Made by a program: the position numbers and the translations under genes. Below, one piece after another: positions 36,964 through 44,754 of a stretch of 64,000 bases of DNA (the first letter of the stretch is position 1; each line of letters begins with the position of its first letter). Under the pieces are notes generated by a model. That model had not been told where the DNA came from. It made no database searches and worked only from the letters and a program-made list of their open reading frames with translations. The DNA comes from Pseudotabrizicola formosa (lineage in GTDB: Bacteria > Pseudomonadota > Alphaproteobacteria > Rhodobacterales > Rhodobacteraceae), in assembly GCF_002900965.1 (NCBI RefSeq), contig NZ_PJOM01000005.1, forward strand, positions 124,001 to 188,000. Reading direction: 5' to 3'.

Positions 36964-38649
36964 ATGACCCGCCACAACACCCGCGACATCTACCCCGCCA
37001 CCGGCACCGACATCACCTGCAAAAGCTGGCTGACCGAGGCCGCCCTGCGCATGCTGATGAACAACCTGCACCCCGATGTGGCCGAAAACCCGCATGAACT
37101 GGTGGTCTACGGCGGCATCGGTCGCGCCGCCCGCACATGGGAGGATTTTGACCGTATCTGCGCCTCCTTGCGTGACCTCGAGTCAGATGAAACCCTGCTG
37201 GTGCAATCCGGCAAGCCGGTCGGCATCTTCCGCACCCACACGGATGCCCCCCGCGTGCTGATCGCCAATTCCAACCTTGTCCCCCACTGGGCCACATGGG
37301 CGCATTTCCACGACCTCGATCGCAAGGGCCTGATGATGTACGGCCAGATGACCGCCGGGTCCTGGATCTACATCGGCACCCAAGGCATCGTGCAGGGCAC
37401 CTATGAGACCTTCGCCGAAGCCGGTCGCCAGCATTACGACGGCAGCCTGAAAGGCCGCTGGATTCTGACCGCGGGCCTGGGCGGCATGGGCGGCGCGCAA
37501 CCCCTTGCGGCGGTGATGGCAGGCGCCTGCTGCCTCGCCGTGGAATGCGACGAGACCCGCGCCGATTTCCGCATCCGCACCCGCTATTGCGACGCCAAGG
37601 CCCATACCTTGGATGAAGCCCTCGCCCTGATCGACCAATGGACCAAGGCGGGCGAGGCGAAATCCGTCGCCCTGATCGGCAATGCCGCAGACATCTTCCC
37701 CGAGATCTACCGCCGCATGCAAGCGGGCGAGCCGATGCCCAACACCCGCCCCGATATCGTCACCGACCAGACCTCGGCCCATGACCCGCTCAACGGCTAT
37801 CTGCCCCGCGGCTGGACCGTGGCCGAATGGCAGGCAAAACGCGAAACCGACCCCGCAGCGGTGGAGGCAGCCGCCCGCGCCTCGATGCGCGACCATGTGG
37901 CGGCGATGGTGGGCTTCTGGAACGCGGGCGTGCCGACGCTGGATTACGGCAACAACATCCGGCAGGTCGCCAAGGAAGAAGGCTTGGAAAACGCCTTTGC
38001 CTTCCCCGGCTTCGTCCCCGCCTATATCCGCCCGCTGTTCTGCAAAGGCATCGGCCCGTTCCGCTGGGTGGCCCTGTCGGGCGACCCCGAGGACATCTAC
38101 AAGACCGACGCCGCGATGAAGAAACTCTTCCCCGACAACACCCATCTGCACCGCTGGCTTGACATGGCGGCTGATCGCATCGCCTTTCAGGGCCTGCCCG
38201 CCCGCATCTGCTGGATCGGTCTGGGCGACCGCCACCGCGCCGGGCTGATGCTGAATGACATGGTCCGCAGCGGAGAGCTGAAAGCCCCCGTGGTGATCGG
38301 GCGCGACCATCTGGACTCCGGCTCCGTCGCCAGCCCAAACCGCGAGACCGAGGCGATGAAGGATGGCTCCGATGCCGTCTCCGACTGGCCGCTGCTGAAC
38401 GCCATGCTCAACGTGGCGGGCGGGGCCACATGGGTGTCGATCCACCATGGCGGCGGGGTGGGCATGGGGTTCAGCCAGCATGCGGGCGTGGTGATCGTGG
38501 CCGATGGCAGCGACGAGGCCGCCAAACGGCTTGAACGCGTGTTGTGGAACGACCCCGCCACCGGCGTCATGCGCCATGCCGATGCGGGCTATGACACAGC
38601 CCGCACCTGCGCCGCAGATCACGGGCTGCGCCTGCCGGGCCTCCTGTGA
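36964..38649 (+). CDS. hutU: urocanate hydratase HutU
   Basis: NAD+-dependent urocanase of 561 residues, the standard length. Conserved stretches include [52 protein letters not shown] (NAD+ binding), [14 protein letters not shown] and [13 protein letters not shown] around the catalytic cysteine. Starts 12 bp after hutG; it overlaps hutD by 4 bp. Confidence 0.96.
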
Positions 38650-39152
38650 ACGGCCTCTATCCCGCCGCCGCCCGCAGCTTCCGCCCGTGGAAGAACGGCG
38701 GCGGCCAGACGGCAGAGATCCTGTGCTGGCCCGAAGGGGCGGGCCTCAAAGACTTCACCCTGCGCCTCAGCACCGCGCGGGTGGAAACCTCCGGCCCGTT
38801 CTCGCTGACGGTGATCGAAGGCGGCGCCATGGTCCTGACCATCGACGGCAAGACCCACCCCCTCGGCCCCGGCAGCCCGCCTTTCGCCTTTGCCGGTGAT
38901 ACCCCCTGCACCGCGCAACTGACCGGGCCGCCGCTCCTTGATTTCAACGTGATGACCCGCCGCCCCCTGCGCGCGCGCGTTACCACCGGCCCCTTGGCCC
39001 CGGACGCCCGCTTTGCCCTGCTGCTGGCCCCCGCCGCCGGGCTGGCACGGCTGGATCTGCTGGATCTGCACCAGGCCGACCCAGGTCTGCTGGCGGCACT
39101 GACCGGCACCCCCGCCATCGCGGTCCACCTGCCTAGCCCGCCTCCGGCGTGA
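38646..39152 (+). CDS. hutD: HutD family protein
   Basis: Small protein of 168 residues with the HutD fingerprint: [14 protein letters not shown] near the N-terminus and FNVMTRRP in the centre; the fold is cupin-like. HutD is regularly found with hut genes and is thought to limit the level of histidine catabolism, but its exact role is not settled. It begins with GTG 38646 overlapping the hutU stop by 4 bp. Its 3' end overlaps the end of convergent hutC by 20 bp. Confidence 0.88.
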
Positions 39153-39849
39153 ACCGGCTGACCAGCTGGTGCCTTGCGCCGGGGTAGGTCTGGCTGACCA
39201 GGGTCACCCAAAGCCCCGCACTCTCGGTCCGGCGGGTGACTTCCAGACAGGCCTCCCCCACCGGCAGCGCCAGGGCCCGCGCCATCGGCGCAGGCGCGTT
39301 CAGCGCCCTTATGCGGTGCTCGGCCGATGTCCACGGGATCTTGCGCAACAGCCATTGACCGGGGGCGACAGCACGAAAATCCTGCTCCAGCGCGGCAGGC
39401 GCGCTGACCGGGTTGATGATGCGCGCCTCATGGCAGAACGGTTGCTCTCCGGCATAATGCACCCCTTCCAGAGCCAGCACCTCGGTCGCAGCGTCAAGGC
39501 GCGCGGCCTGCATCTCATCCTTGCGCGGCGGGCGCAGCGCCCGCAGCGTCAGCGCAAACCGCCACTCCAGACCAAGTGCGCGCACCTCGGCCTCGATATC
39601 GGGAATCGCCATCACCGCCGCCTGCGCCATCGGCTGCGCCACAAAGGTGCCCAGCTTCTTGCGCCGCACCAGAAAGCCTTCGCGGGTCAGCTGGCCCAGC
39701 ACCTTGTTCATCGTCATCCGCGACACGCCATGGCGTTCCGCCAAAGCCGTCTCGAACGGCAGTTGAAACCCCGGCGGCCAGTCACCACCGGTGATCCTGT
39801 CGCGCAACTCTGCAAGGATGCGGTCGTGATGGGTGGTGCGGCTGTCCAC
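39133..39849 (-). CDS. hutC: histidine utilisation repressor HutC (GntR family)
   Basis: Regulator of 238 residues. N-terminal winged helix (RILAELRDRITGGDWPPGFQLPFETALAERHGVSRMTMNKVLGQL) and a UTRA ligand-binding domain (about residues 80-238). HutC proteins repress hut genes and are released by urocanate. Start chosen at GTG 39849 (VDSRTTHHDRIL) with GAGG upstream; a TTG at 39903 would give an 18-residue extension. Convergent with hutD and overlapping it at the 3' ends. Likely operator in the hutF-hutI divergent region. Confidence 0.9.
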   Translation of the reverse strand: MDSRTTHHDRILAELRDRITGGDWPPGFQLPFETALAERHGVSRMTMNKVLGQLTREGFLVRRKKLGTFVAQPMAQAAVMAIPDIEAEVRALGLEWRFALTLRALRPPRKDEMQAARLDAATEVLALEGVHYAGEQPFCHEARIINPVSAPAALEQDFRAVAPGQWLLRKIPWTSAEHRIRALNAPAPMARALALPVGEACLEVTRRTESAGLWVTLVSQTYPGARHQLVSRFTPEAG

Positions 39850-39912
39850 TTGGCCCTCGCTCTGGTCAGGGACCAACCTAGACGCGCGGGGCAGGGGGAA
39901 CAAGCGGCGGGC

Positions 39913-41166: not shown

Positions 41167-42399
41167 TCAGGCATGTGCAGGCACCCGCGCCGCAATATGC
41201 GCGGCCAGCCGTTCCGCATCGCGCCAGGCCCCCCAGATGAAGGCCGACCCCCGGCACGACAGCCAGGGCAGCCCGACGAAATACAACCCCGGCACCTGCG
41301 CCACGCCCTCGCGGTGCAGCGGGCGGCCCTGCGCGTCGAAGGCATCAATCTTGATCCAGCCATAATCCAGCGCATAGCCCGTGGCCCAGACAATGCTGGT
41401 CACCCCCTCTGCCGCCAGATCCAGCGACAGCCGGGGCTGCGTCACACAACCCGGCAAGGGCGCAAATACCCGCGCGCTTGGCTCCTCGGGCAAGCTCAAC
41501 CCATGGGCGGCGGCATAGGCATCCGCCTCATCCAGCACCGACAGGTAATTGGCATCCCCCCGCGCGATGTTCTGCGCCAGATCACCGTTCACCGTCACCG
41601 CCCCATCGGCAAAGCCATTGGCCCGCCCCAGCAGCACCACGCCCTGCGCGGCCAGCCGGCGGAAATCCATCGTCTGCCCGCCATAGGCCCCGCTGACCGC
41701 AATCGTCACATGCTCGGTCCCCGGTTCCTTGGCCTTGGCGTCCCACTTGCCCAGTTTCCCCAGCCACCAGACGAAATCCTGCCCCCGGTAGCGCCGTGGC
41801 GGGCGGTCATGCGGCCCGACCGACAGAAACACCTGACGCCCCGACCGCTGCAATTCCTCGGCAATCTGCGCGCCCGACGATCCCGCCCCCACCACCAGCA
41901 CCGCCCCCGCAGGCAACTGGCCGGGCGCCTTGTACGCGCTGGAGTGCAGCTGCATCAGCCCCGCCCGCGCCGGCACCATGTCGGGGATCAGCGGCTTCTG
42001 GAACGGCCCGGTGGCCACCACCACCTGCGCGGCTTCGATCACCCCGTCCCGGGTTTCCGCGCGAAACCCCGCCGCCGTGCGGTGCAGCGCCACCACCTCC
42101 ACCCCGCAGCGCACGGGGGCGTTGATCTTCGCCGCAAAGGCCTCGAAATACGCCGCCACCTGCTCTTTCCCGGCAAAGGCATCCGGGTCCAACCCTTCAA
42201 ATTCCTGTCCGGGAAAGCGGTCATGCCAGGCCGGGCCATTGGCCACCAGCGACTCCCAGCGTTCCGACCGCCAGCGTTCGGCAATCCGCGCGCGTTCCAG
42301 CACCAGATGCGGCACGCCCCGTTGCGCCAGATGGGCCGAGGTCGCAATCCCGGCCTGACCGGCCCCGATCACCAATGTGTTGACAGTCTCCACAGCCAT
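41167..42399 (-). CDS. FAD/NAD(P)-dependent flavin monooxygenase (CzcO/FMO-like)
   Basis: Flavoprotein of 410 residues with an N-terminal FAD motif GAGQAGIATSAHL, a second nucleotide motif GAGSSGAQIAEEL and the ATGY element (VWATGYALDYGW) seen in flavin-containing monooxygenases. These enzymes N- or S-oxygenate or hydroxylate small molecules. Start at ATG 42399 with AAAGGG upstream. The LysR-type palindrome GCTTAGG-N5-CCTAAGC is centred 89 bp upstream, overlapping the end of the lysR gene. Substrate unknown. Confidence 0.82.
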   Translation of the reverse strand: MAVETVNTLVIGAGQAGIATSAHLAQRGVPHLVLERARIAERWRSERWESLVANGPAWHDRFPGQEFEGLDPDAFAGKEQVAAYFEAFAAKINAPVRCGVEVVALHRTAAGFRAETRDGVIEAAQVVVATGPFQKPLIPDMVPARAGLMQLHSSAYKAPGQLPAGAVLVVGAGSSGAQIAEELQRSGRQVFLSVGPHDRPPRRYRGQDFVWWLGKLGKWDAKAKEPGTEHVTIAVSGAYGGQTMDFRRLAAQGVVLLGRANGFADGAVTVNGDLAQNIARGDANYLSVLDEADAYAAAHGLSLPEEPSARVFAPLPGCVTQPRLSLDLAAEGVTSIVWATGYALDYGWIKIDAFDAQGRPLHREGVAQVPGLYFVGLPWLSCRGSAFIWGAWRDAERLAAHIAARVPAHA

Positions 42400-42478
42400 C
42401 GGCCACCCTTTCCGCAACAGGATGCCCACAGACTACCCCGCCCCCTGCTTTGGAAAAACCATGACCTGTCTTAGCTTT

Positions 42479-42497
42479 GCTTAGGCACCGCCTAAGC
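42479..42497. promoter_or_regulatory. LysR-type operator, copy 1 (upstream of the FAD monooxygenase)
   Basis: GCTTAGG-CACCG-CCTAAGC, a perfect 7-bp palindrome with 5-bp spacer that contains the T-N11-A LysR box. Centre at 42488, 89 bp before the monooxygenase start codon. It covers the stop codon of lysR. The same palindrome recurs at 44625. Confidence 0.75.
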
Positions 42498-43436
42498 GCC
42501 GGGGTCCACAACCGGGCGCAGGCTGCGCACCTTGTCGGGCGTCAGCGCCTCGCGGCAATGGGTCACAAAGCTGCGCACCGTCAGCGCGGCCTGCGCCCCC
42601 GGCGTCAGGATCAGCCCCAGCCGCATCGGCCGCACCGCCCCCACCAGCGGCACAAAGCGCAGCGGCTGGCCATCGGGCGACCGGTCCGACCAAGGCCGGA
42701 TATTGGCGATGGAATAGCCAAAGCCTTGCCCGACAAGGCTTTGCATCACCCCCATGTCCCGCGTCCGCTCCACGATTCGCGGCTTGACCCCATCCGCCTC
42801 AAAGCAGGACAGGAAATAATCGGCCGACAAGGGCAGATCCAGCAGCACCATCGGATGCGCGGCCAGATCCTGCGGGGTCACAGTCTCGCACCCGGCCAGC
42901 GGATGGCCAACCGCCAGCACGGCATAGGGGGTCAAGCTGACCAGCGGCACAAATTCAAGCTCCGCTGGGATGTTGAGGTCATAGCCCAAGGCGGCGTCCA
43001 GCGTCCCCTTGCGCAAGCCGTCATACAGCTCTGGCTGGTCGCCTTCGGACTGGTGAAACGCCACCTGCGGATGCAACAGCGTGAAACTGCGCCGCAGCTG
43101 CGGCAGAATCACCTGCGCAAAGGTGATCAGCCCGCCCACATGCAGCCGCCCCTGCACCGTCTGCGTGATCGCCCCCGCCAGATCGGTCAACTGCCCCGCC
43201 TGCGCCAGAACCTGCCGCGCGTGGTCAGACAGCTGCCGCCCCGCACTGGTCAGCGACAACCCCTGCGCATGGCGGCGCACAAACAGCTGCACCCCGAATT
43301 CCTGCTCCAGATGCGCAATCGCGGCCGAGATTGAAGGCGACGACACATTCACCCGCTCCGCCGCCAGCGCAATCGACCCGGCCTCGCCCACCGCGACCAG
43401 GTATTCCAGCTGCCGAAGGGTGAATCGCAGGGGCAT
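42492..43436 (-). CDS. LysR-family transcriptional regulator
   Basis: Regulator of 314 residues. N-terminal helix-turn-helix (FTLRQLEYLVAVGEAGSIALAAERVNVSSPSISAAIAHLEQEFG), then a periplasmic-binding-like effector domain from about residue 90. Start at ATG 43436 with AAGG upstream. It sits inside the locus it probably controls, between DUF1028 and the monooxygenase. The two identical palindromes at 42479 and 44625 are its best binding-site candidates. Effector unknown. Confidence 0.9.
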   Translation of the reverse strand: MPLRFTLRQLEYLVAVGEAGSIALAAERVNVSSPSISAAIAHLEQEFGVQLFVRRHAQGLSLTSAGRQLSDHARQVLAQAGQLTDLAGAITQTVQGRLHVGGLITFAQVILPQLRRSFTLLHPQVAFHQSEGDQPELYDGLRKGTLDAALGYDLNIPAELEFVPLVSLTPYAVLAVGHPLAGCETVTPQDLAAHPMVLLDLPLSADYFLSCFEADGVKPRIVERTRDMGVMQSLVGQGFGYSIANIRPWSDRSPDGQPLRFVPLVGAVRPMRLGLILTPGAQAALTVRSFVTHCREALTPDKVRSLRPVVDPGA

Positions 43437-43455
43437 GGCGGCCTTTCAGACGGGA

Positions 43456-44127
43456 TCATTCATCGCCGGGCACCCCATAGCTGGGGGCGGCGCTCGGGTC
43501 TGTCGCGCGTTGCACATAGGCCTGCATCTGCGGATGATACACCTCCCACGCCGCCCGCAGCATCCCGATTGGGTCATCCGCCCAGTCGATCCGCAGATCG
43601 GCCAGCGGCCAGCTCAACCGGTCCGCCAGCATCAGCCCGGCGGAATGCACCGGCCCCGCCTCGCCCCCCGCCGCCAGCCCCGCCTCCAGCGCCAGCATCA
43701 GCCGCGCCCCCAGATCGCCCGTCGCGGCCTCAAACCCCGCAACCATGGCGGCGGGAACGGCCTCATGCGCCAACAGATTGCCCCCCGCCGCACAATCCAC
43801 ACCCGCCGCCTCGCCCCATACCCCCAACACCTGCCGCCCGGAATGAAGGGCGGTATGCCCCTGCGCATCGATCACCAGCAATTGCCGGTAATCGATATGC
43901 GCCCGCCCCGCCGTCACCCTTGCCAAAGCCTCCGGCGCAGATCGCCCGGCTGCCATCTGATCCAGCAGCATCGGCCCCAGGCCTGGATCGGTCACATTCT
44001 GGCTTGCCACCGCCCCCACCCCGGCCCGCACATGCGCACAGCGCGCCGCCACGGCAGGCGAGGATGAGGCGATAACCATGCCGAACTGGCCGGTGCGCGC
44101 ACAGCGCGCGATCAGCGAAAACGTCAT
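43456..44127 (-). CDS. DUF1028 family protein (putative Ntn-type hydrolase)
   Basis: Protein of 223 residues with the DUF1028 signature: TFSLIARCARTGQFGMVIASSSPAVAARC at the start, VGAVASQNVTDPGLG, and GNLLAHEAVPAAM. The family resembles N-terminal nucleophile hydrolases but has no firmly established reaction; it is often found with RidA proteins and amidohydrolases in amine or amide catabolic loci. It starts 4 bp after the RidA stop and is followed by lysR. Confidence 0.85.
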   Translation of the reverse strand: MTFSLIARCARTGQFGMVIASSSPAVAARCAHVRAGVGAVASQNVTDPGLGPMLLDQMAAGRSAPEALARVTAGRAHIDYRQLLVIDAQGHTALHSGRQVLGVWGEAAGVDCAAGGNLLAHEAVPAAMVAGFEAATGDLGARLMLALEAGLAAGGEAGPVHSAGLMLADRLSWPLADLRIDWADDPIGMLRAAWEVYHPQMQAYVQRATDPSAAPSYGVPGDE

Positions 44128-44131
44128 GGCG

Positions 44132-44545
44132 CTAATCCGGGATCACGGCGGTGCCGTCAATCTCCACCAGCCAGTCCGGCCGCGCCAGCGCGGTCACCAC
44201 CACCCCGGTGGAAACCGGATGCACATCCTTGATATATTCGCCCATGGTCCGGTACACCGCCTCGCGGTGGCGCACATCGGTCAGGTAGACCACCACCTTG
44301 CACAGATGTTCCATGCTGCCACCCACCTCCTCCAGCAGCTGCCGGATGTTCTGCATCACCTTATGGGTCTGCTCCACCGGGTCATGGCTGCCGATGTTCT
44401 GCGCGGTGTCCAGATCCTGCGGGCACTGGCCGCGCAGGAACACCATGCGCCCGCGCGCCACCACGGCCTGCGCCAGATCATTGTCCAGCTTCTGTTCGGG
44501 ATAGGTGTCCTTGGTGTTGAACTTGCGGTGGCGGGTATGGGCCAT
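44132..44545 (-). CDS. RidA (YjgF/YER057c/UK114) family protein
   Basis: Protein of 137 residues of the RidA superfamily, whose members hydrolyse reactive enamines/imines or act on related aminoacrylate-like intermediates. Visible: VVARGRMVFLRGQCPQD, THKVMQNIRQLLEEVGGSMEHLCKVVVYLTD and HPVSTGVVVTALARPDWLVEID. Start at ATG 44545 with AGAGG upstream. The LysR palindrome copy 2 is centred 89 bp upstream. Probably co-transcribed with DUF1028. Confidence 0.88.
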   Translation of the reverse strand: MAHTRHRKFNTKDTYPEQKLDNDLAQAVVARGRMVFLRGQCPQDLDTAQNIGSHDPVEQTHKVMQNIRQLLEEVGGSMEHLCKVVVYLTDVRHREAVYRTMGEYIKDVHPVSTGVVVTALARPDWLVEIDGTAVIPD

Positions 44546-44624
44546 GGGAACCTCTGTGATCGGGGGCGATGCCGCAGCATGCACCCTCCGTGGCTAAAGA
44601 AAAAGCACGGCATCCTGTCCCGCT

Positions 44625-44643
44625 GCTTAGGTTTTTCCTAAGC
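44625..44643. promoter_or_regulatory. LysR-type operator, copy 2 (upstream of the RidA gene)
   Basis: GCTTAGG-TTTTT-CCTAAGC, with the same arms as copy 1. Centre at 44634, 89 bp before the RidA start codon, the same distance as copy 1 from its gene. On the gene-sense strand both sites are followed within about 20 nt by ACAGG. Confidence 0.75.
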
Positions 44644-44754
44644 CGGCACCTCCGCCCCTTGCGCACAAACGTCATGACGTAAACCATACGCAGGCCAGAC
44701 ATGGATCAGACGCAAATCATACCTGAAATTTCAAGCATTTTCAGACGCTTGCCG

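Follow-up and report, generated by a model that had tools for sequence, protein, structure and literature searches.

The stretch analyzed here, 64,000 nucleotides of the Pseudotabrizicola formosa genome (contig NZ_PJOM01000005.1; hereafter the window), carries a cluster of catabolic genes around a LysR-type regulator and, inside this cluster, two copies of the interrupted palindrome GCTTAGG-N5-CCTAAGC. Comparison with related genomes points to these copies as the recognition operators of that LysR protein, serving two promoters of one small regulon. The features on which the argument draws are as follows, each with its basis in parentheses.

42479..42497, minus strand: LysR operator 1, predicted recognition site GCTTAGG-N5-CCTAAGC (sequence, genome scans, congener alignment)
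42456..42475, minus strand: proximal conserved block of operator 1, alignment positions 21-40, putative activation binding site (alignments)
42454..42459, minus strand: putative -35 element GTTTTT of the FAD monooxygenase (FMO) promoter, alignment positions 37-42 (promoter alignment)
42430..42435, minus strand: putative -10 element TAGTCT of the FMO promoter, alignment positions 61-66 (promoter alignment)
41167..42399, minus strand: FAD-dependent monooxygenase (Pyr_redox_3), HinF-type, putative imidazoleacetate monooxygenase (family, gene order; enzyme name from the available part of PMC6467879)
39913..41055, minus strand: Rieske non-haem iron oxygenase (Ring_hydroxyl_A; below the GbcA cut-off), codirectional with FMO (family search)
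39133..39903, minus strand: GntR/UTRA regulator, HutC-like by context, last codirectional gene of the FMO run (family, context)
44625..44643, minus strand: LysR operator 2, predicted recognition site GCTTAGG-N5-CCTAAGC upstream of ridA (sequence, genome scans, congener alignment)
44602..44621, minus strand: proximal conserved block of operator 2, putative activation binding site (alignments)
44600..44605, minus strand: putative -35 element CTTTTT of the ridA promoter (promoter alignment)
44576..44581, minus strand: putative -10 element CATGCT of the ridA promoter (promoter alignment)
44132..44545, minus strand: RidA family protein, HinL-type, enamine/imine deaminase (family, gene order)
43456..44127, minus strand: DUF1028 protein, HinH-type, putative amidase (gene order; name tentative)
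42492..43436, minus strand: LysR-type regulator (HTH_1 and LysR_substrate), HinK-like, third gene of the ridA run (family search, homologue comparison)

The two palindromes, GCTTAGGCACCGCCTAAGC at 42479-42497 and GCTTAGGTTTTTCCTAAGC at 44625-44643, have identical 7-nt arms and are centered on positions 42488 and 44634, and in each the core TTAGG-N5-CCTAA encloses a T-N11-A box, as a first-pass annotation of the sequence had described. That annotation had also noticed that one copy runs into the stop codon of lysR; indeed, the TAG within one arm of operator 1 is that codon (42494-42492, minus strand), and the stop codon likewise lies within a palindrome arm in five Pseudotabrizicola loci (L038-L042). 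The first bases of the FMO and ridA start codons, both on the minus strand, are at 42399 and 44545, which places both palindrome centers 89 nt from the ATG. This equality, from which the annotation had argued, is exact in the window and is not conserved: the corresponding distances in the five Pseudotabrizicola relatives are 90-96 nt for FMO and 88-119 nt for RidA, a range that rules out a conserved spacing of 89 nt, and the 89/89 match is partly coincidence and should not be over-read.

The repetition itself, claimed to be beyond chance, holds in the genome as a whole (3,702,758 bases in 14 contigs). The full palindrome occurs exactly at these two sites only, with two further places at 2 mismatches, and the core TTAGG-N5-CCTAA is likewise exact nowhere else; a genome-wide scan thus confines the exact sequence to the two promoters and yields no further exact member. 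The pattern CTTAG-N7-CTAAG with at most 1 mismatch adds one place, while the looser TTAG-N7-CTAA adds two exact ones, both without the GG/CC pair. Extended to the proximal contacts, the pattern recovers both operators, one without and one with a single mismatch, and two other places with 3 mismatches; its mirrored control gave 2 and 6. A chance repeat is ruled out by the exclusive exact matches and the extended-pattern scan. Within the window alone, counting at up to 3 mismatches gave 2 copies against 1.29 expected, which is not significant; the weight of the argument rests on the exact matches. No copy at up to 3 mismatches was found elsewhere in the window, the hut genes included.

The site is conserved together with the genes and the regulator. 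LysR orthologues (E ≤1e-60) are present in 66 of 295 genomes of the family, and an exact core was found in 28 of these 66 genomes versus 33 of the 229 lacking the regulator (odds ratio, 4.4; Fisher P, 3.5e-6). The footprint set comprised the window and 72 further loci, 73 in all: 60 of the 70 non-own LysR matches (omitting those of G068, G078, G273, G264, G096, and G223, along with an additional copy in each of G073, G026, G187, and G239) and the first 12 (L038-L049) of 19 loci added from named genomes, L050-L056 (27-31% identity) being left out; five of the 19 are from Pseudotabrizicola, with LysR identities of 85-90%, and L043 and L059, on the same contig, are one locus counted twice. With at least 8 of the 10 core bases required within 300 nt upstream, the motif preceded a leading FMO gene in 44/47 cases (43/46 without the duplicate), a leading Rieske gene in 19/24, a leading RidA gene in 12/26, and an FMO gene classed as internal in 6/9, compared with 1/60 for internal DUF1028, 1/37 for internal RidA, 0/13 for internal Rieske, 1/27 for leading LysR, and 10/45 for internal LysR genes; the division into leading and internal is crude, the class of a gene depending solely on the presence of another cluster gene over -40 to -150. 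At 9 or more bases, 26/47 leading FMO genes retained the motif versus at most 5/47 for any of ten control motifs. Moreover, the exact motif stands beside FMO genes located away from the LysR locus, at 104 nt in G034, 92 nt in G104, and 115 nt in G174, distances that run from the first matched FMO residue. Nine genomes have such a relocated gene; upstream regions were read in these three, and the six others carry it at no less than 56% identity and at least 9 kb away. Rearrangement of the cluster is frequent, and the operator tends to accompany the genes. The two-promoter LysR regulon proposed in the first-pass annotation is thus supported by genome exclusivity, orthologous lead genes, and relocated FMO genes, with binding by LysR as its prediction.

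Two further arrangements were observed among the relatives. Extra motif copies lie 27-30 nt before lysR in L043, L045, L047, and L059 (the last on the same contig as L043), and pairs of motifs 21 bp apart occur between divergent FMO and RidA genes in L074, L075, L090, and L094. Such additional or paired copies suggest autorepression or tandem recognition and activation sites.

Classical LysR operators, such as those of BenM/CatM and CbnR, combine a recognition site with a T-N11-A box near -65 and an activation site near -35. A matching anatomy emerged when 85 promoters of FMO, Rieske, and RidA genes (<80% alike), picked for an 8/10 palindrome at 70-200 nt, were aligned on palindrome positions 1-15. 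Beyond the palindrome, conservation was found at C17 (0.87), G21 (0.74), T23 (0.69), A29 (0.84), and T35 (0.84) and further at T38 and T39 (0.81 each), T40 (0.71), and A62 (0.75); the same block recurs in 23 histamine dehydrogenase promoters, with T38 and T39 at 1.00, and is directly visible in the Pseudotabrizicola alignments of both promoters. Positions 17-40 may be read as the activation site, positions 37-42 as the -35 element, and positions 61-66 as the -10 element, and on this reading the palindrome center would therefore lie near -65 of the putative transcription start. The proximal block and the putative -35/-10 elements keep a fixed distance from the palindrome, the -10 being weak.

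The regulator and the core genes resemble a known system. In the window LysR protein, both HTH_1 (70.6 bits) and LysR_substrate (113.1 bits) exceed their cut-offs, and its best solved homologues are 6m5f and 3fzv (191 bits; next, 95), of which 3fzv is the protein that we take to be PA0218/HinK. The available part of PMC2881104 gives 3fzv as a P. aeruginosa protein. When the LysR protein of a distant genome in which its gene neighbors one of the hinF type was compared with the P. formosa genome, its best match was the window LysR (172 versus 61 bits); the latter appears to be HinK-like. According to the accessible portions of PMC8231116, HinK is a LysR protein that binds and acts on the hinD and hinF promoters, with imidazole-4-acetate as its effector, and those of PMC6467879 name hinF as FAD monooxygenase and hinL as enamine deaminase. 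The gene order FMO-RidA-DUF1028 corresponds to hinF-hinL-hinH in P. putida U and P. aeruginosa (same portions of both sources), and the three genes occur together in 25/29 further loci across the phylum, namely, those of the 29 best non-own FMO matches. Judged by family and gene order, these core genes therefore appear to match hinF-hinL-hinH of the imidazole-4-acetate pathway, HinH being equated with DUF1028 from gene order.

In relatives, the operator precedes additional genes of a related chemistry. With the motif scored at 8/10 within 260 nt upstream, it was found before a 693-amino-acid (aa) flavoprotein of the histamine dehydrogenase type in 25/34 matches and before a PotA-type transporter (ABC) ATPase in 13/20. 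The flavoprotein matches the solved histamine dehydrogenase 6de6 over residues 1-686 of 689 (1,211 bits), and an aldehyde dehydrogenase ≥60% identical to the one in L071 is present in 12/72 loci, 11 of which also have histamine dehydrogenase. In Pseudotabrizicola alkalilacus (L040, 1495-3552), a histamine dehydrogenase with 67.5% identity adjoins the cluster, at the flank that an amidohydrolase and an amidase occupy in the window, and an 8/10 operator was not found before it. A Rieske oxygenase accompanies the cluster in 36/64 related loci; it is GbcA/CntA-like with scores below the cut-offs, and one could speculate that its step is the demethylation of N-methylimidazoleacetate.

HpaB-type monooxygenases with the operator were also observed, in L058 (12398-13912; 91 nt) and L110 (4360-5898; 96 nt). 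No HinF-type gene was present in the fetched stretches of either locus; at E 1e-60, none was found in the genome of L058 (G205), and that of L110 (G263) had one at 39%. In addition, relatives of the LysR protein and of the monooxygenase were recorded on plasmids (103 and 105 records, respectively) of Klebsiella and also of Pantoea and Acetobacter.

The comparisons show directly that the sites exist, are exclusive in the genome, and are conserved together with the genes and LysR, and that the promoter geometry is conserved; from these observations, we infer binding by LysR, activation rather than repression, the extents of the operons, the inducer, and the substrate. We put at roughly 85% the probability that the palindromes serve as recognition operators for the LysR protein whose gene lies between them, which would activate two gene groups for imidazoleacetate breakdown. 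In the mechanism proposed, one dimer of a LysR tetramer would be anchored on the high-affinity site TTAGG-N5-CCTAA at about -65, while the other would contact the proximal activation site abutting or overlapping the -35 element, and inducer binding would activate RNA polymerase at both promoters. The FMO promoter would drive FMO, the Rieske gene, and hutC, and the ridA promoter would drive ridA, DUF1028, and lysR, such that the regulator could amplify itself; lysR is probably autoregulated in this way as third gene of the ridA run. The HinF-, HinL-, and HinH-type enzymes would then open the imidazoleacetate ring. The P. formosa genome has no histamine dehydrogenase, and therefore the most likely inducer is imidazole-4-acetate or a close relative.

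Several observations weigh against this interpretation. That absence of histamine dehydrogenase (best match, 31% identity, HinC- and HinD-type enzymes not having been searched for) also makes any assignment of the physiological substrate tentative. The promoter alignment was preselected for the palindrome, so that only the flanking conservation is independent, 12 divergent sites were counted twice, and a full TAnnnT at position 61 occurs in only 15% of the promoters. At the 8/10 level, the ten control motifs reach 0-14/47 before leading FMO genes (swapA, 14/47; N4 spacer, 12/47; N6 spacer, 11/47), and N6 and swapA each reach 8/24 before leading Rieske genes. An exact copy is missing in 38/66 LysR-positive genomes, so that over half have imperfect sites at most, and 33/229 LysR-negative genomes have one. 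Several loci lack an 8/10 site before the lead gene, including L049, L086, L101, L104, L105, L107, L111, and L114. In the phylum set, the operator at 9/10 is present in 7/12 loci within the class and missing in 5/12, including 3/4 loci of the same family, and outside the class it was found in 0/17 hinF-type loci, with 1/17 reaching 8. Sharing of this operator with hinF-type promoters outside the class was thus rejected; taken together with the lack of histamine dehydrogenase, this result makes "HinK-like" the appropriate label. A different shared element, ..AGCTTTTyCCTAG (CTAGGGAAAAGCTGC-like), was observed at 153-166 nt before FMO in L179, L190, and L193, and it is a candidate operator in such loci of other classes.

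Other explanations of the palindromes were considered. They could be RNA hairpins that terminate transcription of the genes before them (lysR and the amidohydrolase gene), considering that one copy overlaps the lysR stop codon, the other lies ∼110 nt after the amidohydrolase stop on the same strand, and a stem of 7 bp with a loop of 5 nt is possible in each. No U run follows either hairpin, however, and terminator-like sites in 42300-44750 numbered 0 against 1.5 expected by shuffling. In relatives, moreover, two divergent genes have the site in common in 12/109 distinct cases, at places where no gene ends, and changes in the arms are uncompensated, since pair 5/11 is unpaired in 54/109 sites versus 3 with other Watson-Crick pairs, a count biased by the choice of sites for the 8/10 consensus. 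On these grounds, a terminator or RNA hairpin was rejected as barely credible. The sites could instead belong to another regulator, for instance, the HutC-like GntR protein (39133-39903), whose gene ends the FMO run beside the adjoining hut genes. This is very improbable: GntR matches at ≥40% identity were listed only for the five Pseudotabrizicola loci among the 72 relatives, while the motif is present in most of the others; a T-N11-A box near -65 with a proximal site is the geometry of LysR proteins; and the window, hut genes included, has no other palindrome within 3 mismatches, the hut promoters not having been scanned for a HutC site.

If the regulator is indeed this LysR protein, its mode of action and its substrate may still differ from those proposed. 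Some LysR proteins act as repressors, and the sites 27-30 nt before lysR in L043, L045, L047, and L059 fit autorepression there. At the catabolic promoters, however, ∼53 nt separate the palindrome center from the first base of the putative -10 element downstream of it, and the conserved proximal block abuts the -35 element, as in activated LysR promoters, which makes a plain repressor site improbable. More room is left for the possibility that the operators are correctly assigned and the pathway is another one, with a different imidazole or an amide, imported by the neighboring PotD-like transporter, as the inducer. The missing histamine dehydrogenase would agree with it, as would the amidase, amidohydrolase, and ABC transporter genes that adjoin the cluster in the window, as their homologues do in L038, L039, and L041. 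We consider it doubtful nonetheless, given the hinF-hinL-hinH order in 25/29 phylum loci and the histamine dehydrogenase gene, which bears the operator in relatives and adjoins the cluster in P. alkalilacus. Activation by LysR in response to an imidazoleacetate-type compound is thus the interpretation retained here.

Beyond the cluster, the plus strand carries members of the amidohydrolase (HutI-like), aromatic lyase (HutH), FGase (HutG), and HutD families, with hutU at 36964-38649 named by eye without a family search; on the other side are the amidohydrolase, amidase, and PotD-type ABC transporter genes. A homologue of the HutC-like GntR gene occupies the matching place in the five Pseudotabrizicola loci. 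The LysR promoter may thus also drive the hut repressor, a link that, if true, would connect imidazoleacetate induction to the control of histidine degradation. More broadly, and tentatively, the cluster may represent an undescribed alphaproteobacterial regulon of the imidazoleacetate type with its own operator, TTAGG-N5-CCTAA, uniting histamine dehydrogenase, a PotA-type transporter, HinF- or HpaB-type monooxygenases, and a Rieske oxygenase possibly acting on N-methylated imidazoleacetates, with hutC of Pseudotabrizicola under the LysR promoter. The analysis turns an uncharacterized LysR protein and the RidA, DUF1028, FMO, and Rieske genes of a widespread bacterial family into a testable regulon for which a defined operator, a promoter layout, a list of targets, and a possible inducer can be named, and it places the Rieske oxygenase and HpaB-type enzyme in a regulatory context. 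It also suggests that some genes annotated as "DUF1028 domain-containing protein" or "NAD(P)/FAD-dependent oxidoreductase" function in imidazoleacetate or histamine breakdown.

Among the papers listed in literature searches, which took in neither subscription papers nor the published HinK operator sequence, no operator or regulon of this kind appeared; the table passages of PMC5343134 list HutC and two LysR regulons, and the words histamine, imidazole, and RidA are absent from that source. With operators of the BenM/CatM and CbnR type, the window sites share the interrupted T-N11-A palindrome, the proximal second block, and putative -35/-10 elements at a fixed spacing, and they differ in having their own consensus, TTAGG-N5-CCTAA, and two separate promoters on one strand. 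As in hut clusters with HutC, genes for HutH, HutG, HutD, a HutI-like amidohydrolase, and a GntR/UTRA regulator adjoin the cluster, whereas the palindrome (at up to 3 mismatches) is absent from the rest of the window and the HutC-like gene is only the last of the FMO run. The closest likeness is to the HinK regulon of P. putida U and P. aeruginosa (hinDAC and hinFLHG, as given in the available text of PMC8231116 and PMC6467879), with which the window shares a LysR regulator, two separate promoters plus the regulator's own gene, and the hinF-hinL-hinH order of FMO-RidA-DUF1028. In contrast to that regulon, the window has lysR inside the ridA run and an extra Rieske oxygenase, and its organism lacks histamine dehydrogenase; the HinK regulon uses the HinC aminotransferase, while the first step in relatives of the window appears to be histamine dehydrogenase. 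Without implying identity with HinK or with the HinK operator, the gene and promoter comparisons suggest that the P. formosa system works like the HinK regulon on imidazoleacetate-type compounds.

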